From a virus, in the IMG/VR virus record IMGVR_UViG_3300028129_000052, positions 1 to 26,930 of that record: a stretch of DNA of 26,930 nt; one strand, written 5' to 3'. The notes below the pieces were generated by a model. That model was not told the origin of the DNA, did no database searches, and saw only the letters and a list, made by a program, of their open reading frames with translations. Positions 6,995 through 22,812 of this stretch are shown in pieces. Position 1 is the stretch's first letter; every line of letters begins with the position of its first letter. The translations under genes and the position numbers were made by a program.

Positions 6995-7050
6995 TTAGTT
7001 GTCTCCACCGTGTGTAGCAAGTAGACTCAATCCCTAATAATCAGGTACTT

Positions 7051-7104
7051 AGAAAAACAACCCCACCCCTCTTCTTGTAGAAAAACAGCACCCCCTCTTC
7101 TGAC
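7051..7104 (+). repeat. Imperfect tandem repeat ahead of terminator
   Basis: Two adjacent units (7051-7078 and 7079-7104) share AGAAAAACA followed by a C-rich run and CCCCTCTTCT. Both contain the same left arm of the terminator stem, so the AGAGGGG arm at 7116-7122 could pair with either copy. Confidence 0.8.
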
Positions 7105-7128
7105 TCGCACTCGGTAGAGGGGTTTTTT
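7092..7128 (+). terminator. Rho-independent terminator of first early operon
   Basis: CCCCTCT (7092-7098) pairs perfectly with AGAGGGG (7116-7122) across a 17-nt loop, followed directly by six T (7123-7128). A second copy of the left arm at 7066-7072 could form a longer alternative hairpin. Confidence 0.88.
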
Positions 7129-7530
7129 GTACTAATTTTATGTATGTCAGCTCCCTGTGAAGACTATATTACGAAACCCCCGATGGGTTACTCTCAAGGG
7201 AAATGGGGGTCTCGAAGTGAGTTCGCTCCTCTCACTCAATATGGAACCACCTTTGGTGATTCATTCTGTGTGTTATAGTTAGTGGTTGTTACTCTCGTGC
7301 TACCTGTGGCTCGTGTTACGCTACCGCTCCACACTTCGCATCCTCTCCGTATTCACTTAGTCTTTAGTGCTACATCATTCACTACTGACTAACCGATTAC
7401 CGTGCTGTGTACTGCGTGCTTGAACTACCGTTCAGCACTCCGTTCCTCTCCGTAATCATCTGATATTATGCGTGTTGTGTGTCTGTGCTACACGTGTGAA
7501 TAGTCTCCGTAACTATTGGGATATTCACCG

Positions 7531-7540
7531 TTCACTATCA
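7531..7540 (+). repeat. TTCACTATCA repeat, copy 1
   Basis: Exact 10-mer inside the structured RNA; its last two bases join the 17-bp helix. Followed by ACACG rather than CG. Confidence 0.8.
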
Positions 7541-7563
7541 ACACGTATGGTATCATCTTTTAT

Positions 7564-7593
7564 AGAGTATTAGCGAGTGTCTAATGCTCTTTT
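7564..7593 (+). terminator. Hairpin with T-tract at 3' end of structured RNA
   Basis: AGAGTATTAG (7564-7573) pairs with CTAATGCTCT (7581-7590), ten pairs with one G-U, over a 7-nt loop, followed by TTTATTA. The T-run is short, so this may be a weak intrinsic terminator or a processing hairpin. Confidence 0.5.
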
Positions 7594-7668
7594 ATTAACT
7601 ACGTGGTATATGTGTATCACTTGCTCTCTAAAAGTCCTTGAGAGTTGACAAATAGGTATTGTATTGTT
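7594..7668 (+). promoter_or_regulatory. Structured leader of 80-residue gene
   Basis: Two short hairpins precede the ATG: GTGGTA/TATCAC (7603-7608/7615-7620) and CTCTC/GAGAG (7624-7628/7640-7644). The last 11 bases including the start codon (GTATTGTTATG, 7661-7671) recur exactly at the start of the gene at 8171, suggesting a shared translation signal. No -7 box was found. Confidence 0.4.
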
Positions 7669-7911
7669 ATGGGTAGATATATTCATAAGATTGATAGGCA
7701 TACTGTTGTTCATACCGCAACTATGCACGTTTCTAACGTTGGTAGCAATAGCACTTACGTTAGTAGGTATGATAAAGGTAGACTTATACATGAAGACATT
7801 ATGTCCTCTAATAGGCTTACTGAATACTTAGCCGACTTTGAACCGTTGGTTGGTATTCAAAACTCTTACATTCCTTCGGTTAAAGACGACGAGTTCGTTG
7901 ACTTGCCTTAG
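7669..7911 (+). CDS. Hypothetical 80-residue protein in RNA island
   Basis: ATG at 7669 opens 80 codons (MGRYIHKIDRHTVVHTATMH...). An in-frame TTG at 7645 would overlap a leader hairpin, so the ATG is preferred. It also shares its start context with the gene at 8171. The N-terminal half is His-rich and the C-terminal half acidic (YIPSVKDDEFVDLP). Codon choice leans to GGT, GTT, TAC and GAC, unlike the A-rich codons of most neighbours and like the gene at 8171. The balanced amino-acid content supports coding. Function unknown. Confidence 0.6.
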   Translation: MGRYIHKIDRHTVVHTATMHVSNVGSNSTYVSRYDKGRLIHEDIMSSNRLTEYLADFEPLVGIQNSYIPSVKDDEFVDLP

Positions 7912-7943
7912 TATGTATTGTCCGAAATGACATTAAACTACCC

Positions 7944-7995
7944 TCGATAAGGATTAGCACCTTATCCTGATGAGTCGCTTCGAAAGGGATGAAAC
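7944..7995 (+). ncRNA. Hammerhead-type self-cleaving ribozyme, degenerate stem III
   Basis: The order fits an open-stem-III (type III) hammerhead. U-C is at 7944-7945, with predicted cleavage after 7945. Stem I is GATAAGG/CCTTATC (7946-7952/7960-7966) with a 7-nt loop. The core CTGATGA is at 7967-7973. Stem II is 7974-7980/7984-7990, six pairs with a G-U closing pair and one G-G mismatch. GAA is at 7991-7993, and A7994 can pair with U7944. Every conserved core base is present. What is missing is stem III: C7995 faces C7943 and the next bases do not pair, so activity is doubtful unless a distant strand supplies stem III. It lies in the intergenic leader of the gene at 8171. Confidence 0.55.
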
Positions 7996-8170
7996 TGAGT
8001 TGTACTTGTAGCGAGTACCACCGATGACGAGATGTTGTCCGTGTCTAAACACTCAGCCATATATCTCTATCTTAGAGTTAGTCAGGATAGCTATTCACTA
8101 TCATTCAGAGTATTATGCCTTGTGTACTTTGTCTTACCTTCCAATTATCCAACAAGGTTTATGTATTGTT
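7996..8170 (+). promoter_or_regulatory. Structured 5' leader of gene at 8171
   Basis: After the ribozyme core come a GTACT/AGTAC hairpin (8002-8006/8014-8018), a CTCT/AGAG hairpin, and GATAG/CTATC (8086-8090/8098-8102), whose right arm is the start of a TTCACTATCA copy. The frame stays open upstream of 8171 but gives a Cys-rich, improbable extension, so this is read as untranslated. Confidence 0.4.
8094..8103 (+). repeat. TTCACTATCA repeat, copy 2
   Basis: Exact 10-mer in the leader of the gene at 8171; its CTATC pairs with GATAG just upstream. Confidence 0.8.
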
Positions 8171-10751: not shown

Positions 10752-11279
10752 ATGAGTGCATCAAGTAGAAATTATTTCAGACAAATGGAAGAAGAAATAG
10801 AAAATGGAGGTATGTCTTTAGCACAAGAAATGCAAGAGAGTAAAATGCATGCAGAAAGAATGGATGAGTTAAAGGAAAGAACTCAAAAAGAGTTTGAAGA
10901 ATGTGATTTAGTATTCACATACGGTACTCTAATGAGAGGATACGGTAACAACAGGCTATTAGAAGGAGCTTTCTTCAAAGGAGAAGCTGAAACAGTAGAA
11001 AAGTATATGCTAACAGCAAGTGGAATACCATTCGTGCATCCAAAACACAACAAAGTAGAAATCAAAGGAGAAGTATGGGAAGTGAGAACTCTAAGACAGT
11101 TCATACACTTAGACGCTCTTGAATCTCACCCTAATTGGTACAAAAGAGAAATCATAGAAGTTAGAGTCAAGAATAAAATTAAAAAAGCTTGGATTTATTT
11201 CAATGAAGACTCAGTAGGTACAGAAATACCAAGTGGAGATTACAGAGATTACAAACCAACATACACAAACTTTGATTAA
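10752..11279 (+). CDS. Gamma-glutamylcyclotransferase-like (AIG2/GGCT) protein
   Basis: 175 residues. A helical 50-residue extension precedes a GGCT fold. The nucleophile-binding loop YGTLMRGYGNN starts at about residue 57, the central strands include IKGEVWEV, and the likely catalytic Glu is at about 124 in LDALESHPNWYKRE, followed by a final strand KKAWIYF. Family knowledge: these enzymes cyclise gamma-glutamyl amines to release 5-oxoproline. In phage and bacterial neighbourhoods they occur beside amidoligases and class II glutamine amidotransferases, both of which are present downstream (12722 and 14457). The substrate is probably a gamma-glutamyl amide made or removed by that set, an inference. 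The N-terminal helix is unusual for the family. Confidence 0.8.
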   Translation: MSASSRNYFRQMEEEIENGGMSLAQEMQESKMHAERMDELKERTQKEFEECDLVFTYGTLMRGYGNNRLLEGAFFKGEAETVEKYMLTASGIPFVHPKHNKVEIKGEVWEVRTLRQFIHLDALESHPNWYKREIIEVRVKNKIKKAWIYFNEDSVGTEIPSGDYRDYKPTYTNFD

Positions 11280-11280
11280 T

Positions 11281-11448
11281 ATGCACGAGTTATCACATCT
11301 ATTAGGTACGTGTGGAGAGCCACACCCTTCATTGTTAATGAGTATTCCTGTATTAGGATACATAATCTACAAGGTAAAACAATACTTCCAAATAATTAAA
11401 GGATTTAAAAATGAACCCAATGGTTTATGTAGGAACAATAGAAAATAA
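11281..11448 (+). CDS. Small putative membrane protein
   Basis: 55 residues from the ATG at 11281, one base after the preceding stop (MHELSHLLGTCGEPHPSLLM...). A hydrophobic stretch of about 18 residues (LLMSIPVLGYIIYKV) could cross or lie in the inner membrane, followed by a basic tail. It overlaps the DnaA-like gene by 38 bases. The hydrophobic stretch is interrupted by a Pro and a Tyr, so membrane insertion is uncertain. Confidence 0.5.
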   Translation: MHELSHLLGTCGEPHPSLLMSIPVLGYIIYKVKQYFQIIKGFKNEPNGLCRNNRK

Positions 11449-11800
11449 AAAGAACATCAACGAGCACTATCTCTTACGTATAATAGAAAAAGTAACAGGA
11501 ATAACCGAAGAAGAAATGGTCGGTAAATCAAGAAGAAGAGAGTTCGTTGAGGCAAGATTTATATTCTTCTATTGCATGAGAAAATACAGCAAAGTAACTG
11601 TTAAGTCTATAGGAAATATGCTCAGAAAAGACCACTCATCAGTGATATATGGAGCAAACGAAATAATGAAAATTATAGAACAAAGCAGAACTTTAGCTAC
11701 TCAACTCAGGATAGTAGAAAAGTACATCCAACAAGGGAGTCTGAACCCATGTAAAGCAGAGACCGTTAAGAGTTACACGGATAAGAAGCTCAATAAATAA
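11411..11800 (+). CDS. Stand-alone DnaA domain IV-like DNA-binding protein
   Basis: 129 residues. From about residue 27 the sequence follows the DnaA C-terminal helix-turn-helix: GITEEEMVGKSRRREFVEAR, then FFYCMRKYSKVTVKSIGNML, then RKDHSSVIYGANEI (residues about 72-85), which matches the DnaA signature segment RDHSTVxxA that contacts the DnaA box. The AAA+ ATPase and N-terminal domains are absent, so it cannot unwind DNA itself. Phage proteins of this kind could mark the phage origin, occupy host DnaA boxes, or regulate transcription. The 3' part beyond residue 100 is basic. Its place before the DnaB helicase region fits a replication role. Confidence 0.8.
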   Translation: MNPMVYVGTIENKKNINEHYLLRIIEKVTGITEEEMVGKSRRREFVEARFIFFYCMRKYSKVTVKSIGNMLRKDHSSVIYGANEIMKIIEQSRTLATQLRIVEKYIQQGSLNPCKAETVKSYTDKKLNK

Positions 11801-11818
11801 TTTTTTAAACTAAGAACA

Positions 11819-12718
11819 ATGGAAAATCAATTCAACATCGAAACAGTAGAAACTTTAAACTTTAACAAGAAAACTACTGCAGCAATAAATTTAGAGACAT
11901 TAAGAAACACAATAGCAAGTCTTAATGTAGGTGGAACACTACCAAAGAATAGACCTGTAGCTCACCATGATTTCATTACATGGGTAAGCCAAGAGTTTGA
12001 AGATGCGTTACAAGTAGACGCAATCATAGAACCAATTCATATCTCAGCAAGGCACAGTCAAAGAATAAAGGTTGACCCTAATGAGTTTATCAACCCTAAA
12101 GACCCAATGCCTATCAACAGGCTACACGTACAGAGATTGGTAACTAAGATATATTCTCCTAACATAATAGAGGTAGGCGAAGAAAAAATATGTCCATCGA
12201 TAGCAATATCTTACAACGAAAAAGGTATTGAGATAGCATACGGTGCAAACGTGTGGGCTTGTGCAAACATGAACATCTTTGGAAAATCAAGATGGGCTAC
12301 GTATGGTAGAGATGGAATCAATTACGAGTCCATGAAAACTTTAATACAAGCTCAGCTTAATGATTGGGAACGTGCTTTCCAAAGAGATGTAAGCATAATA
12401 GAAAGACTTCAAGGAGCAGAATGTGATTTAGATAAACAACGATTAGAAGTAGCTAAGCTATTTGAGGTAGCAGTAAGAGCTAACACATTAAAAAGAAAAG
12501 AAACTGTTCTAAACACGACTCAATGTATTCAGTTGCAAGCAGAACTCTTAAAGAGAAGAGACAATGAGCAAGCTAATACATGGTGGGATTTCACCCAGGC
12601 AGGTACAGAAAACCTAAAGCCTACTAATGCAGACATGATTTCATTACATCCAACAATAGAATTATTCAATGATTGGGTATGTAAATCAGCTGAAATTGAT
12701 AACGCTATAATACTATAA
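11819..12718 (+). CDS. DUF932-like phage/plasmid protein
   Basis: 299 residues. The central segment ISYNEKGIEIAYGANVWACA followed by NMNIFGKSRWATYGRDGINY resembles the DUF932 family carried by phages and plasmids, where a strand-turn-strand (GxxVxVCxNL) is followed by a long helix. That helix is visible here (QAQLNDWERAFQRDVSIIER). An N-terminal HDFITWVSQEFEDAL segment and a C-terminal WWDFTQAGTENLKP segment are similar to the family as I recall it. Its function is not established. It lies between the DnaA-like gene and the amidoligase. Confidence 0.55.
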   Translation: MENQFNIETVETLNFNKKTTAAINLETLRNTIASLNVGGTLPKNRPVAHHDFITWVSQEFEDALQVDAIIEPIHISARHSQRIKVDPNEFINPKDPMPINRLHVQRLVTKIYSPNIIEVGEEKICPSIAISYNEKGIEIAYGANVWACANMNIFGKSRWATYGRDGINYESMKTLIQAQLNDWERAFQRDVSIIERLQGAECDLDKQRLEVAKLFEVAVRANTLKRKETVLNTTQCIQLQAELLKRRDNEQANTWWDFTQAGTENLKPTNADMISLHPTIELFNDWVCKSAEIDNAIIL

Positions 12719-12721
12719 GAT

Positions 12722-14065
12722 ATGCCAAGAATACAACGAGAATGTTGCACTAACTGTGGTGGTACAGTACAAGTCGAATTAATGATAACAAATGCACACA
12801 ATAGTAACAGGGTATGTCAACCCTGTGCTACTGTGCTGCTATTTGAATCAGCATTTGACCGTGAATGGTATCCTCGAACAATGAGGGTAAGAACAGATGA
12901 AGGATTCATGACAAGAGAGCAGAGAGATAATCTTAGTAGCTACTCATCATGTGTTATATGTGAAACAAGAGTTCATCAAGATAGATTAAGAAACGTAATG
13001 TTAAATGATGAGATACAACAAGCTTGTGGGTATTGCTCAGATAATTTAGCAACCTGTGATTCATGTTCAATTCCTCTTTATGAAGATTCTGAAAACATTG
13101 TTCATATAGGAGCATACACAAACGAAATAAGATGTAGAGAGTGTGCAGAGACAGACGAAGAACTGTATATGTGCGAAGAAGCAGAATGTGCTACGTATGT
13201 CAATCAAGAAATAGGAGAAACAGAAGATGGAGAGTATTTCTGTAGAAACCATGTTCCTCAATTAGAACCAATAAGAATATGGAACTACACATACACTCCT
13301 AATCTTAACTTCACATCAAACGCTGTAGATAACACAAGAGGAAAGTATTTCAACAGAGAGTTACCTTTTTACGGTATAGAAATAGAAGTTGATACTCCTG
13401 ACGGTATGCAACAAACAGCAGACAAATGCAGATTGATGGCTGCAGAAGACATATACTTAAAAAGAGATGCAAGTATAGACGGATTCGAAATTGTTACACA
13501 TCCTTCAACGTTCAGAGCACAAAAAGATTTGCCTTGGACTGATAGATTAAAGGAGCTAAAAAAGCATGGAGCAAGAGGGTATAACTCAGGTAAATGTGGA
13601 ATACATATACACGTTACAAAAGAAGCTTACAGCCCTATAGTGTGGTGGAAAATATTAATGTTTTCGTACAGATGTTCTTCTCAATGGAAAATGTTTGCAA
13701 GAAGAAATGGAAACTACAGATATTGTCCATACAGTTCTCCAACTCAGTACGAAAACTACAGCAGAAAAAAGACAATGTATCCTGAAGTGGAAGATAGGTA
13801 CAAGCATATAAACGTAACAGAACATACTGTAGAGTTTAGAATGTTTCGTTCAACTACTGACCATGATAGATTTTGGGCTACGTTAGAGTTTGTTTACTCT
13901 GCTATAGCATTCTGCGAGCAGCATGGATATTCATTCATGGTAAACAATAGTGCTACGGTAATATGGGATGAGTTTACTAAGTTCATTAAGAACCAAAACG
14001 AATGTCATACACTAAGAAAACACTTAAAGAAAAGAAACCTTTCAAGGGTAGGTATTAATAACTAA
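12722..14065 (+). CDS. Zinc-finger amidoligase (COOH-NH2 ligase, glutamine-synthetase-like)
   Basis: 447 residues in two parts. Residues 1-180 hold a dense series of CxxC pairs (CCTNCGG, CQPC, CVIC, CGYC, CDSC, CREC and CEEAEC, then a CRNH pair), likely treble-clef or RING-like zinc fingers for binding a protein or RNA target. From about 215, FYGIEIEVDTPDG gives the first strand with its metal-binding acids, GFEIVTHPSTF lies near 254, CGIHIHVTKEAY near 291, and TVEFRMFRSTTDHDRF near 370; these match the phage amidoligase family related to glutamine synthetase. Known family role: ATP-dependent joining of an amine to a carboxylate. Neighbours of GGCT and glutamine amidotransferase type support a peptide or amide modification set. 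The substrate is not known. Confidence 0.82.
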   Translation: MPRIQRECCTNCGGTVQVELMITNAHNSNRVCQPCATVLLFESAFDREWYPRTMRVRTDEGFMTREQRDNLSSYSSCVICETRVHQDRLRNVMLNDEIQQACGYCSDNLATCDSCSIPLYEDSENIVHIGAYTNEIRCRECAETDEELYMCEEAECATYVNQEIGETEDGEYFCRNHVPQLEPIRIWNYTYTPNLNFTSNAVDNTRGKYFNRELPFYGIEIEVDTPDGMQQTADKCRLMAAEDIYLKRDASIDGFEIVTHPSTFRAQKDLPWTDRLKELKKHGARGYNSGKCGIHIHVTKEAYSPIVWWKILMFSYRCSSQWKMFARRNGNYRYCPYSSPTQYENYSRKKTMYPEVEDRYKHINVTEHTVEFRMFRSTTDHDRFWATLEFVYSAIAFCEQHGYSFMVNNSATVIWDEFTKFIKNQNECHTLRKHLKKRNLSRVGINN

Positions 14066-14077
14066 AATTAATTAACG

Positions 14078-14302
14078 ATGAAAAATAAATTCACAATCGA
14101 CAAAGCAAGAAGTACAGATGACTTCGACAATATGTGTTTCCAACCTTCAGACGGTGGAGAATACGATGCTAAGACAGCGTTCTATATCCTTGAGAATGGA
14201 AGGGGAGGCAGCATGAGAAATGTAAAAACAGGTGTAAGCTTCATGGTAAGCTACAACTCAAGTAACAATCTTTGGGTAAGAAAACAGCTAAAGATTAAGT
14301 GA
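14078..14302 (+). CDS. Hypothetical 74-residue protein
   Basis: Starts MKNKFTIDKARSTDDFDNMC, 12 bases after the amidoligase stop. A mixed small domain with a glycine turn (LENGRGGSMRNVKTGVSFMV). It overlaps the next gene by GTGA. It may work with the amidoligase set by position only. No family recognised. Confidence 0.66.
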   Translation: MKNKFTIDKARSTDDFDNMCFQPSDGGEYDAKTAFYILENGRGGSMRNVKTGVSFMVSYNSSNNLWVRKQLKIK

Positions 14303-14451
14303 AATCAATAAGAGTTACTGAAGCAGACAGTATGCCTTTCGAAAGGTGGACAGCCTATATGTGGTGTATTTTAATAACCGAGGGATTAACAAAGACTCAC
14401 TACCTCTGCACAATAAAAGGAGAGAGTTGGATTAAACCTCACAACAAATAA
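14299..14451 (+). CDS. Hypothetical 50-residue protein, GTG start
   Basis: GTG at 14299 overlaps the preceding stop (GTGA) and opens 50 codons (MKSIRVTEADSMPFERWTAY...). It is rich in Trp and Thr. The coupling and close spacing to the next gene argue for it, although the start is not ATG. Confidence 0.5.
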   Translation: MKSIRVTEADSMPFERWTAYMWCILITEGLTKTHYLCTIKGESWIKPHNK

Positions 14452-14456
14452 AAATT

Positions 14457-15323
14457 ATGTGTTTAATTATAATAAAAGAAGTAGGAAAAGAATTAGTATC
14501 AAGAAAAATAATCAGCGAAGTATGGGAAAAGAATCCACACGGAGCAGGATTAATATACAAAAAGAAAGATGCCTCATCATACAAGATGATTAAAGGGCTA
14601 ATGACAGAAGATGATTTAACTTCTACAATAAAATCTTTAGGACTTACCAAAGATGATTGGATAGCATACCACTTACGTTGGGCTACATCAGGAGACATCG
14701 ACCAAAAGACTACGCACCCATTCGTTGTACATAACGACAAGGATATAATCAATACTCTTTCAGTCGAAAGGTCTGATAAGACCGTAATGGTAATGCACAA
14801 TGGAGTCATATACGACCTCAACGATAAGACAGCCAAAGAATCTGATACGCAACGTTTGATTAGCGAATACCTATCGAAGATTGCTTACAAGGAACTACTG
14901 TACAATGACGCAGTTAAATCTCTAATCGAAAAGTTTATCGACGGTAGTCGTTTACTAATCGTTCACGGTAGAGAAGGACACGTAACCTATGGTAAATGGC
15001 ACGAACACGAAGGATACATGATTAGCAAGCCTTACAAAGATGCTACTGTAAAGAAAGTAAGCAACAACTATAAGAGAAATCAAAAGTTCCTTGGGTTTGG
15101 TAATAGTTCACTATCACGCACTACAACTCAGTTCGACTTCCTATTCGACACCGAAGACGAAGACCCTAATCAGTTAGATATATTTCCAACCTCTTCGGTA
15201 GAAGATAGCATGAAGCTTTCTGAAGACTTCTGTAACTATTGCGGTATGTTCCGAGCATTAGTTCATGTTCCTGCCTACAATTCCGAAGTATGCTCACAAT
15301 GTATAAACGATTATCAATTATAA
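14457..15323 (+). CDS. Class II glutamine amidotransferase with C-terminal zinc ribbon
   Basis: 288 residues. Begins Met-Cys, so Cys2 would be the N-terminal nucleophile after Met removal, as in N-terminal nucleophile glutaminases. The family pattern is clear: NPHGAGLIY (26-34), HLRWATSGDID (72-82), THPF (86-89), HNGV (114-117) and SDTQ (129-132) are the expected substrate and oxyanion positions. Known reaction: removes ammonia from glutamine and channels it to a partner synthetase. The amidoligase at 12722 is the obvious candidate. A C-terminal extension carries a CxxC pair near 264 and a second near 280, a likely zinc ribbon. The second half of the gene uses more C-ending codons than the first, and a TTCACTATCACG copy lies inside it. 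Confidence 0.85.
   Translation: MCLIIIKEVGKELVSRKIISEVWEKNPHGAGLIYKKKDASSYKMIKGLMTEDDLTSTIKSLGLTKDDWIAYHLRWATSGDIDQKTTHPFVVHNDKDIINTLSVERSDKTVMVMHNGVIYDLNDKTAKESDTQRLISEYLSKIAYKELLYNDAVKSLIEKFIDGSRLLIVHGREGHVTYGKWHEHEGYMISKPYKDATVKKVSNNYKRNQKFLGFGNSSLSRTTTQFDFLFDTEDEDPNQLDIFPTSSVEDSMKLSEDFCNYCGMFRALVHVPAYNSEVCSQCINDYQL
15107..15118 (+). repeat. TTCACTATCACG repeat, copy 5
   Basis: 12-base form inside the glutamine amidotransferase gene, encoding Ser-Leu-Ser-Arg. Confidence 0.8.
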
Positions 15324-16061: not shown

Positions 16062-16256
16062 ATGAGTGAAGAAAAAGTAATTATTGCCTATAAAGGTGGT
16101 AAATTTGAGACCCTGATTGGAAAAAAGTTAGCAATACTTCATCCAAGTCAAAGCACTATAGCTGTAACTCAAGACGGTTCAATAGTGTTCATAGGAAATA
16201 TTCAGGACTTGAGATATGTAAAAATAAAATCAAATAATAAAGAAGAAAAAGAATGA
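16062..16256 (+). CDS. Hypothetical 64-residue protein upstream of DnaB
   Basis: Starts MSEEKVIIAYKGGKFETLIG. Alternating strands (IIAYKGGKFET, STIAVTQDGSIVFIG) suggest a small beta barrel. Its stop overlaps the DnaB start by ATGA, so the two are probably coupled. No family recognised. Confidence 0.66.
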   Translation: MSEEKVIIAYKGGKFETLIGKKLAILHPSQSTIAVTQDGSIVFIGNIQDLRYVKIKSNNKEEKE

Positions 16257-17596
16257 TATACCACAGAGAATCAGAAGAAGCTGTATTGGGAACTATAATT
16301 TCTCACAAAGACTCTATATTCCGAATAGCAGATATGCTTCCTGAAGACTCTTTCTATGATGAGTTTAATCAATTCATATACAAATGCTGTTTAGAGTTGG
16401 CTAATAATTCCACAATAGATTTAATCACGGTAGTAGAGAAAGCTATGTCTAAAAGAAAGACATTATCTATCGAACATCAGGGAACTAATATAGCTCACTC
16501 AGTAAGCATCTTGTCAGGAAAGATTGGCTCAGACATTAATCTTGAACACCATGCAGAGATACTCTTAAAGTACAGGACTATACGAAAGCTTTATACTATG
16601 GGTGGAGAAATCCAAAAGAACATAGATGAAGGAATGGATATAGACGAGATAATATCTTTAACTGCAGATGGATTCAACGATGCGACATCAAACAAAAGTA
16701 AGTCAGAAGTTTACATCAACGAAGGATTAAAAGAGTTCTACGAGAACCAAAACAAAGCGTTAGATTCAAAATTACTTCCGACTTTCATTAAAGAAATTGA
16801 TACCATCATTGGAGGGTTTGAATACTCAGACCTCATCATCATAGCAGGAGCAGCAAGTATGGGTAAGACATCTTTCATGCTGAAGTTGTTGCAAAATTTA
16901 ATTAACAACGACAGAAGCGTAGCTATATTCTCATTGGAGATGAGTAACAACCAACTCTTAACGAGACTAATAGCTATGGAGACGGAGATTGACATAAAAA
17001 GAATCAGATACAATGACTTAGATGAAACCGATTGGTCAAGAATAAACAAAGTCATAGGTCAATATGAAACAAAGAGGCTTGTAATGGATGGAGCAACAGT
17101 CAAATTAAATGACGTTCTCAACAAAATAAAAAAGCTAAAGATTAAAGACGACATTGACATAGTGTTTATCGATTACCTTCAGTTGGTTACTGACAGCAAT
17201 ACAAAAAGTTCAAGAGAGCAAGAGGTTGCACGTATAGCACGTTCACTAAAAAACATAGCCAAAGAACTTAACATTGTTGTAGTAGCCCTGAGTCAGCTAT
17301 CGAGAGCATTAACTCTAAGAGATAACAAGAGACCAATGCTTTCAGATTTAAGAGAGTCAGGAGAAATAGAGCAGGCTGCAGATACAATCATGTTTGCCTT
17401 CAGAGAAGAGTATTATACCATGGATAATCCAAGAGAAATTCAGGATGCTGAAATCATTATAGCTAAGGGAAGAAACGTAGGCTTAGGTGTAGCCCACCTT
17501 AAATTCAAGCCTGGAATAGTAAAGTTTATATCCCCTTCAGAAAATGGATTATTCGGTGAAGCATTAAGTAACGCAGACAACGATGAATTTTTCTAA
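16253..17596 (+). CDS. dnaB: Replicative DNA helicase, DnaB family
   Basis: 447 residues, close to the bacterial length. The N-terminal collar helix region (SEEAVLGTIISHKDSIFRIA) is followed by the RecA-like motor. Walker A (AGAASMGKTSFML) is at about residues 198-210, VAIFSLEMSNNQL is motif H1a, IDIVFIDYLQLVTD near 300 is Walker B, VVVALSQLSR is motif H3, and RESGEIEQAADTIM carries motif H4. The family unwinds the lagging-strand template as a hexamer. As a phage copy it would be loaded at the phage origin. Nearby DnaA domain IV-like and SSB-like genes complete a replication set. No truncation is seen. Confidence 0.93.
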   Translation: MIYHRESEEAVLGTIISHKDSIFRIADMLPEDSFYDEFNQFIYKCCLELANNSTIDLITVVEKAMSKRKTLSIEHQGTNIAHSVSILSGKIGSDINLEHHAEILLKYRTIRKLYTMGGEIQKNIDEGMDIDEIISLTADGFNDATSNKSKSEVYINEGLKEFYENQNKALDSKLLPTFIKEIDTIIGGFEYSDLIIIAGAASMGKTSFMLKLLQNLINNDRSVAIFSLEMSNNQLLTRLIAMETEIDIKRIRYNDLDETDWSRINKVIGQYETKRLVMDGATVKLNDVLNKIKKLKIKDDIDIVFIDYLQLVTDSNTKSSREQEVARIARSLKNIAKELNIVVVALSQLSRALTLRDNKRPMLSDLRESGEIEQAADTIMFAFREEYYTMDNPREIQDAEIIIAKGRNVGLGVAHLKFKPGIVKFISPSENGLFGEALSNADNDEFF

Positions 17597-21951: not shown

Positions 21952-22812
21952 ATGATTGAAAAAATAAATAGAAAAAGTTTAATCATTAGACCTTCAGGTA
22001 GAAGTTCAGACTTTATTTCTCCAAGCTTTGGGTACGGTTGTTTATATGACTGTACCTATTGCTACATGAAAAGACATAAACCAACAGGGTTAACAATAGC
22101 AGATAGAGCAAGTGTAACAGATATACTAACAGAGATAAACTCTCATGCAGCTTTTTCTACAATAGAGAAGCCAAATCAAACACATAGTAAATACATTACA
22201 TACGACATCAGCTGTAACGAAGACTTTGCGTTACACCATAAGCAACATGATTGGAAAAGAATATTTGATTTCTTTAAGAACCATGACAAAATAATGGGAA
22301 CGTTAGCAACTAAATATATACCATTAAATTTTTTAGAATACAACCCTGAAGGTAAAATAAGAATAAGGTTTAGTCTAATGCCACAAAGTATATCAGATAA
22401 GTTAGAACCTAACACAACAAAAATCATTGACAGAATTAAAGCTGTTGATGCTTTTATTGAAGCAGGATATGATGTACATTTAAACTTTAGTCCTGTAGTT
22501 TATTATGACGAATGGTTGCAAGACTATGAAGAGTTGTTTGATATGTGCGACCAATACATAGATTATAAAAGTCAAGTATTAGCAGAAGTTATATTCTTGA
22601 CACACAATGAAAACAAACATAAATACAACTTAGAAAATAATAAACCAGGAGAAGAATTAATATGGAAACCACACTTACAAGAGAGTAAAGTATCTGAGTA
22701 TGGGGGAGAAAATATAAGGTATGCTGTTAATTTTAAATCTCAATGGATAAACAAATGGAGAGCATTACATGACAGGATAATACCTTGGAATACAATACGT
22801 TATATATTTTAA
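21952..22812 (+). CDS. Radical SAM protein, spore photoproduct lyase-like
   Basis: 286 residues. The cluster motif CxxxCxxC is at Cys30, Cys34 and Cys37 (FGYGCLYDCTYCYMKRH), the binding site for a 4Fe-4S cluster used with S-adenosylmethionine. The surrounding sequence, including a preceding PSFGYG, then YITYDISCNEDFALH, MGTLATKYIPLNFLEYNPEG and FSLMPQSISDKLEP, resembles the spore photoproduct lyase and Rv2578c-type group. Phage members are known to me only by sequence; they may repair UV thymine adducts in phage DNA or act on another nucleic acid. No additional conserved Cys near the end was found. It is the last gene before the terminator at 22837. Confidence 0.78.
   Translation: MIEKINRKSLIIRPSGRSSDFISPSFGYGCLYDCTYCYMKRHKPTGLTIADRASVTDILTEINSHAAFSTIEKPNQTHSKYITYDISCNEDFALHHKQHDWKRIFDFFKNHDKIMGTLATKYIPLNFLEYNPEGKIRIRFSLMPQSISDKLEPNTTKIIDRIKAVDAFIEAGYDVHLNFSPVVYYDEWLQDYEELFDMCDQYIDYKSQVLAEVIFLTHNENKHKYNLENNKPGEELIWKPHLQESKVSEYGGENIRYAVNFKSQWINKWRALHDRIIPWNTIRYIF

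Follow-up and report, generated by a model that had tools for sequence, protein, structure and literature searches.

A phage cassette with the kinds of enzyme considered here, fuller in gene content, was reportedly described by Iyer et al. in 2009. Passages in PMC5498523, PMC3890496 and PMC11945000 place a gamma-glutamyl cyclotransferase (GGCT), a class II glutamine amidotransferase (GATase) and a glutamine synthetase (GS)-like amidoligase alongside two further ligases, of the COOH-NH2 and ATP-grasp kinds, in LUZ24-, RIO-1- and phiEco32-like phages. The relevant part of PMC10580990 gives an amidoligase and GATase pair for OM43 phages, and that of PMC10945688 a GATase, an amidoligase, a GGCT and a glutathione-synthase-like gene for a Planctomycetes phage. 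Here we analyse the viral record IMGVR_UViG_3300028129_000052 (hereafter the window, the whole stretch of 26,930 bases, G+C ~34%), in which genes for a GGCT, an amidoligase and a GATase occupy one block directly upstream of the gene for the DnaB helicase and other replication genes (Table 1). In the amidoligase branch studied here, ligase and GATase form a near-obligate pair; GGCT is an optional third partner.

The open reading frames (ORFs) of the three enzymes are confirmed on the plus strand where a preliminary description of this DNA had placed them, and the families assigned there are upheld, for GGCT and the amidoligase by scores above the Pfam cut-offs and for the GATase by its motifs. 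The GGCT matches PF06094 (1.1e-22, 81.3 bits against a cut-off of 22.8) and phrog_2520, 'gamma-glutamyl cyclotransferase' (1.3e-28). Its closest solved relative is human GGACT (3jub, 3.2e-6), whose Glu82, a Gln in the related entry 3jud, aligns with Glu124 of the window protein. Glu124 and the YGxL motif residues Y57, G58 and L60 are invariant across seven aligned sequences, and Glu124 is likely to be the catalytic residue. The protein also has an N-terminal extension of ~50 residues.

The amidoligase matches PF12224 (1.2e-7, 32.3 bits against a cut-off of 22, which its relatives also pass) and phrog_16683 (1.9e-28). A CxxC-rich zinc-ribbon region at the N-terminus (about residues 9-177) precedes a catalytic part (about residues 216-400) that carries the motifs GxExE, DxSxxGxE, HxH and ExR together with R328 and N364. 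The residues G218, E220, E222, D249, S251, E256, H295, H297, R328, N364, E371 and R373 are invariant in six diverse phages, and we take the invariant ExE, E, H, R and ExR residues to be the GS active-site positions.

The GATase falls below the Pfam cut-off for GATase_6 (0.0039, 17.6 bits against 27) and far under that of the GlmS-type model PRK00331 (1.5e-4, 20.3 against 381). We read these low scores as divergence because the catalytic motifs of the class II signature are kept: Cys2 right after Met1, HLRWATSG (with R74, W75 and T77), HNG (H114, N115, G116) and SDT (with D130 and T131). The MC start is invariant in all aligned members, and five relatives all keep Cys2, R74, W75, T77, H87, N115, G116 and D130. 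A single hidden Markov model (HMM) picks up both the window protein and phage GATases that pass the cut-off, such as that of locus L008 (GATase_6 2.4e-26). From the motifs and this homology we claim the protein as a predicted class II (N-terminal nucleophile, Ntn) GATase.

Single-protein scans of viral contigs returned no matches, and an alignment-based scan was required to collect relatives of the amidoligase, which gave 80 viral loci. The loci were ordered by how closely they resemble the window protein, and the counts below describe this amidoligase branch rather than the whole family. Profile HMMs made from the proteins of the block were run over these and three further sets of loci: 36 seeded on the GATase, 77 control loci seeded on DnaB and 80 bacterial loci. 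Of the 80 amidoligase-seeded loci, 72 have a GATase encoded on the strand of the amidoligase at a median distance of ~4 bases, and an amidoligase is present in 32 of the 36 GATase-seeded loci. The DnaB-seeded controls, which are shorter on average than the surveyed loci, hold the pair in 2 of 77 (its two genes are adjacent there too), and the difference is large for both the amidoligase-seeded and the GATase-seeded set (Fisher p = 1e-32 and 2e-21, respectively). With amidoligases clustered at 50% identity, 51 of 54 clusters have a GATase no more than 1.2 kb away. The bacterial loci, mostly from Clostridia, have an adjacent GATase in 78 of 80 cases. Eight amidoligase loci are without a GATase: seven are C. 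difficile-phage-like and much alike, and in the eighth the contig ends. The amidoligases of the C. difficile-type phages (L026-L031, L053 and L003), which have neither zinc ribbons nor a nearby GATase, are the main exception to the pairing. Separately, a serine-recombinase/invertase-like gene lies beside the bacterial pair in 49 of the 80 loci (L220-L299, mostly Clostridia genomes), often downstream, and this companion suggests a mobile-element home.

Four of the 80 viral loci (L009-L012) belong to true relatives of the window, in which DnaB and several replication genes are shared in the same order. Three of them (L009, L010 and L012) keep the full succession of GGCT, a stand-alone DnaA C-terminal domain (DnaA_C) protein, a 299-residue protein, amidoligase, GATase and DnaB, and so show the co-occurrence in related phages whose absence the preliminary description had named as a refutation. 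The contig of the fourth, L011, begins inside the block, just before the gene for the 299-residue protein. Identity to the window across these four relatives is 30-46% for the amidoligase and 33-56% for the GATase.

The third gene is less constant. GGCT is found in 5/80 amidoligase-seeded, 11/36 GATase-seeded, 0/80 bacterial and 5/77 control loci, and since it is scarce or absent in most of these sets we treat it as an optional part. Such counts, with the control occurrences mostly lacking an amidoligase, would also fit chance neighbourhood, with GGCT, a gene widespread in phages, lying near the pair by accident and the pair alone being the module. The GGCT tree is in keeping with chance, as it does not firmly group the window protein with GGCT domains fused to GATases (support 0.52; the clade is absent in IQ-TREE); with that branch not resolved, we discarded the tree as evidence for a shared origin of the fused and split forms. 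Accident is nonetheless a quite improbable explanation in our judgement. GGCT is enriched in the GATase-seeded loci (p = 0.001; 8/32, p = 0.02, when the window's four relatives are left out), its place in the gene order is conserved in three relatives, and LUZ24-like and Zobellviridae phages carry all three genes in a single run.

Fusion proteins add to this argument. Five phages encode a GATase::GGCT fusion, namely those of L126, L128 and L129 and two with complete genomes, MW202828 and C75C1 (listed in Table 1 as L300 and L301); the last two records annotate the protein as gamma-glutamyl cyclotransferase only. The L126, L128 and L129 proteins consist of an N-terminal GATase domain, then a GGCT domain (Pfam GGACT, 5e-22 to 1e-21 each) and a C-terminal Cys-pair ribbon, and a C-terminal zinc ribbon is present in 4/5 fusions. 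All three fusion loci with enough flank have an amidoligase upstream: L128 (E 1.4e-7), MW202828 (E 1.6e-13) and C75C1 (E 2e-24). The amidoligases of L128 and MW202828 are divergent, and that of L128 gives no PF12224 match. The trio thus occurs in three kinds of arrangement, as separated genes, as neighbours in a long cassette and as a fusion, which we read as a functional linkage of GGCT with the pair. Fusions standing beside an amidoligase indicate that this link is real though optional. The three-enzyme connection made in the preliminary description is therefore backed by stronger evidence than it had, with the qualification that GGCT is not a fixed part.

Both members of the pair carry cysteine motifs outside their catalytic domains. 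Six CxxC pairs in the N-terminal ~180 residues of the amidoligase (C9/C12, C32/C35, C77/C80, C102/C105, C112/C115 and C138/C141) are invariant in the window and its relatives, in agreement with the N-terminal zinc-finger region noted earlier, and the GATase ends in an invariant CxxC..CxxC arrangement (C259/C262/C279/C282). At least two CxxC motifs are found in the N-terminal extension of 78/104 amidoligases, of which such extensions are a general feature, and in the catalytic part of 2/104; the C-terminal extension of 49/102 GATases has at least two. The share among 500 other ORFs is 3%. The pairs are expected to bind metal, and the presence of matching ribbons on both partners suggests that the two dock, either together or on a target that they share. 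The ribbons are no proof of a bound macromolecule, which the preliminary description had read from the zinc-finger region.

We propose, with a probability of about 0.5, that the three genes form a single module of gamma-glutamyl or amide chemistry, in which the GATase would feed the amidoligase, the ribbons would dock and GGCT would trim. The sequence basis for this proposal is the three enzyme families, their intact predicted active-site residues, the fixed amidoligase-GATase pairing and the fusions beside an amidoligase. Class II GATase domains normally hand ammonia to a synthase partner, as in GlmS, PurF and AsnB; because the GATase here stands alone with a GS-like ligase as its fixed neighbour, we take the ligase to be the synthase and ammonia to be the amine. 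The GATase would split glutamine via its N-terminal cysteine and pass the ammonia to the amidoligase, which, using ATP, would join it to a peptide or protein carboxylate to give an amide. The ribbons at the N-terminal end of the amidoligase and the C-terminal end of the GATase may dock the enzymes on each other or on their target. Where present, GGCT could free gamma-glutamyl groups as 5-oxoproline, reversing or trimming gamma-glutamyl-amide products. The amide and gamma-glutamyl theme of the preliminary description is supported; the order of reactions given there, from ammonia supply through amide formation to gamma-glutamyl removal, is drawn from family knowledge.

A number of observations weigh against this proposal. 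Most amidoligase/GATase loci have no GGCT, which is not enriched in the amidoligase-seeded set relative to the control, and the window GGCT lies 1.4 kb away from the pair with two unrelated genes intervening. The C. difficile phage group keeps its amidoligase without a nearby GATase, and the pairing is accordingly not absolute. No amidoligase-GATase fusion was found in the viral or bacterial loci surveyed. Finally, the activities of all three enzymes are predictions from sequence, and docking by zinc ribbons is argued from motifs.

As to what the module would act on, a protein and a cell-wall peptide have equal, tentative claims, a small metabolite is slightly less favoured, and a nucleotide or DNA appears unlikely. 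A cell-wall target would make of the module a means to amidate or cross-link peptidoglycan stem peptides and so block superinfection or hydrolases, a role already suggested for the phiEco32, RIO-1 and LUZ24-like phages. Passages of PMC5498523 and PMC11945000 use the name peptidoglycan modification cassette for the fuller set, which has these kinds of enzyme, and the term is repeated for phiEco32 in parts of PMC10580990 and PMC11318856; in these passages the wall role is a prediction from earlier comparative genomics (Iyer 2009 and Hardies 2013, as cited there). As far as its records reach, the window's lineage lacks two ligases of the fuller cassette (COOH-NH2 and LUZ24-type ATP-grasp), and zinc-ribbon proteins of a cytoplasmic type would be odd for a wall substrate, so that we regard modification of the wall as possible but somewhat doubtful.

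A metabolic role would have the trio scavenge gamma-glutamyl metabolites, recycling glutamate and amines for phage growth as an auxiliary metabolic module. The GATase would then act much like yeast Dug3, a gamma-glutamyl hydrolase. GGCT and class II GATases both cut gamma-glutamyl bonds, and five phages encode the two as one protein. A section of PMC10945688 reports that a phage carrying these kinds of enzyme helps nitrogen use, at the level of the whole phage and with no test of a single gene. Scavenging leaves unexplained both the zinc ribbons and the finding that a GATase almost always accompanies the ligase and a GGCT does so only at times, and we consider it unlikely.

The pair might instead serve takeover or counter-defence, as a mobile-element device that amidates a host protein or nucleic-acid-bound complex under the guidance of its zinc ribbons. 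It occurs in many phages, and in bacterial loci that often place a serine-recombinase-like gene beside it; amidoligases of the family are also found on plasmid-classed records, both partners bear ribbons, and the site in the window lies among replication genes. Yet no conserved small substrate peptide or substrate gene stands beside the pair among the phage and bacterial neighbour clusters, and PADLOC gives no match, by which a known defence system was also rejected. In view of these points we rate a takeover role as an unlikely alternative. A more specific version, improbable but distinctive, is that the pair is a protein-tagging or amidating machine of mobile elements, docked in infected cells by its ribbons on a protein or nucleic-acid complex of the host, with GGCT, at times fused to the GATase, as the eraser; it would constitute a covalent writer-plus-eraser system outside the known phage takeover enzymes.

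Table 1. Positions of the genes and regions discussed, in the window unless another locus is named.
Feature	Position	Strand	Length (residues)	Basis or remark
GGCT (GGCT/AIG2 fold)	10752..11279	+	175	PF06094, phrog_2520
Stand-alone DnaA C-terminal (helix-turn-helix) domain protein	11411..11800	+	129	PF08299 1.4e-15
299-residue protein, possibly DUF3871/DUF932-like (weak)	11819..12718	+	299	adjoins amidoligase upstream in all four relatives
GS-like amidoligase (Amidoligase_2)	12722..14065	+	447	PF12224, phrog_16683, invariant residues
Small ORF between amidoligase and GATase	14078..14302	+	74	no confident family
Small ORF between amidoligase and GATase, GTG start	14299..14451	+	50	doubtful gene
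Stand-alone class II GATase (glutaminase) domain, no synthase domain	14457..15323	+	288	motifs, homology
DnaB replicative helicase	16253..17596	+		PF03796 3.8e-82; conserved downstream neighbour, outside amide module; anchor of control survey
Radical-SAM protein	21952..22812	+		PF20903 7e-23
Region of raised G+C	~6995-8165			~1.1 kb, G+C 0.42
GATase::GGCT fusion, L126	4104-5195
GATase::GGCT fusion, L128	8001-9092
GATase::GGCT fusion, L129	2454-3524
GATase::GGCT fusion, L300	7001-8218
GATase::GGCT fusion, L301	7001-7897
Small DnaA-like gene, L300	10326-10628

The other genes of the block are conserved to differing degrees. The DnaA_C and 299-residue proteins are conserved neighbours in the window's phage lineage only. 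The former probably has a replication role outside the amide module, and its gene may mark a replication origin or regulate DnaB loading. Small DnaA-like genes were also seen near the GATase::GGCT fusions of L128 and L300. The 299-residue protein of the window has no family match of its own, and its predicted structure has a pLDDT of 78.8. The DUF932-like label that the preliminary description attached to it is tentative at best; one relative of the protein scores against DUF932 (PF06067, 1e-3, 19.1 bits against a cut-off of 23) and DUF3871 (3e-5), both below cut-off. We rejected the idea that this protein is a fourth, obligate member of the module: among viral contigs it turns up in the four relatives alone, and it is not among the top neighbour clusters elsewhere. 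The relatives do not have the two small ORFs that separate the window's amidoligase and GATase; their GATase gene touches or overlaps that of the amidoligase.

The minus strand of the wider window encodes a terminase large subunit; a long plus-strand block follows, which includes DnaB, a single-stranded DNA-binding (SSB)-like protein, a RusA-like resolvase and an exonuclease. A DNA-level search against known named phages gave no match for the window. A separate record, L131 (IMGVR_UViG_3300024359_000136), has a DnaB identical to that of the window and represents nearly the same phage. A Shine-Dalgarno-like sequence precedes 2 of the 37 plus-strand start codons, a pattern as in Bacteroidota phages, and one relative of the 299-residue protein matches a Bacteroides domain family weakly; from these two observations we infer that the host may be a member of the Bacteroidota. 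The radical-SAM protein resembles spore photoproduct lyase and is kept in L009, L012 and, in part, L011. It possibly acts in DNA repair or DNA modification, and is odd in a phage with a possibly non-sporulating host. The region of raised G+C lies near a skew change and holds no convincing ORF; it has no Rfam match and no strong repeats, and may serve as an origin or in regulation.

Phages and mobile elements from widely different bacteria have retained the same small pair of enzymes, onto which the optional third enzyme is fused in some phages. A long-standing prediction of phage-made amide modification becomes testable with two or three small proteins in place of a seven-gene cassette. Should the target be a host protein or the cell wall, the pair would represent a covalent takeover or exclusion mechanism common to mobile elements.

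Comparison with the known systems places the window among several variants of this arrangement. The relatives L009-L012 share its gene order and set of protein families, the window alone having two small ORFs between the pair. The Marvin-like mycobacteriophage Tesla (gp108/gp109) and the OM43 phage MEP402 (gp06/gp07) likewise have an amidoligase with a stand-alone class II GATase immediately behind it, and Cys pairs occur in the N-terminal part of their amidoligases; they differ in having no GGCT within the flanks examined, and their amidoligases are 22-29% identical to that of the window. The bacterial, mostly Clostridia, loci have the adjacent pair and, unlike the window, no GGCT. The fusion phages C75C1, MW202828, L126, L128 and L129 resemble the window in holding the trio within ~3 kb where the flank suffices, but have GATase and GGCT in one polypeptide and a divergent amidoligase without the zinc-ribbon extension. 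The LUZ24/RIO-1/phiEco32 cassette (L008, L089 and L090) shares with the window a GGCT, a class II GATase and an Amidoligase_2 in the replication region, whereas the window amidoligase bears zinc ribbons and the window GATase is shorter and of another subgroup. Searches for the two other ligases of that cassette, COOH-NH2 and LUZ24-type ATP-grasp, gave no match in the window record, which is a fragment, or in the 65 kb of L010, while positive controls matched, and on this account we view the window's cassette as reduced. The module is a minimal form of the already described LUZ24/RIO-1/phiEco32 'peptidoglycan modification' cassette; what seems to have drawn little notice so far is the near-obligate pairing of amidoligase and GATase, their matching zinc ribbons and the GATase::GGCT fusions.

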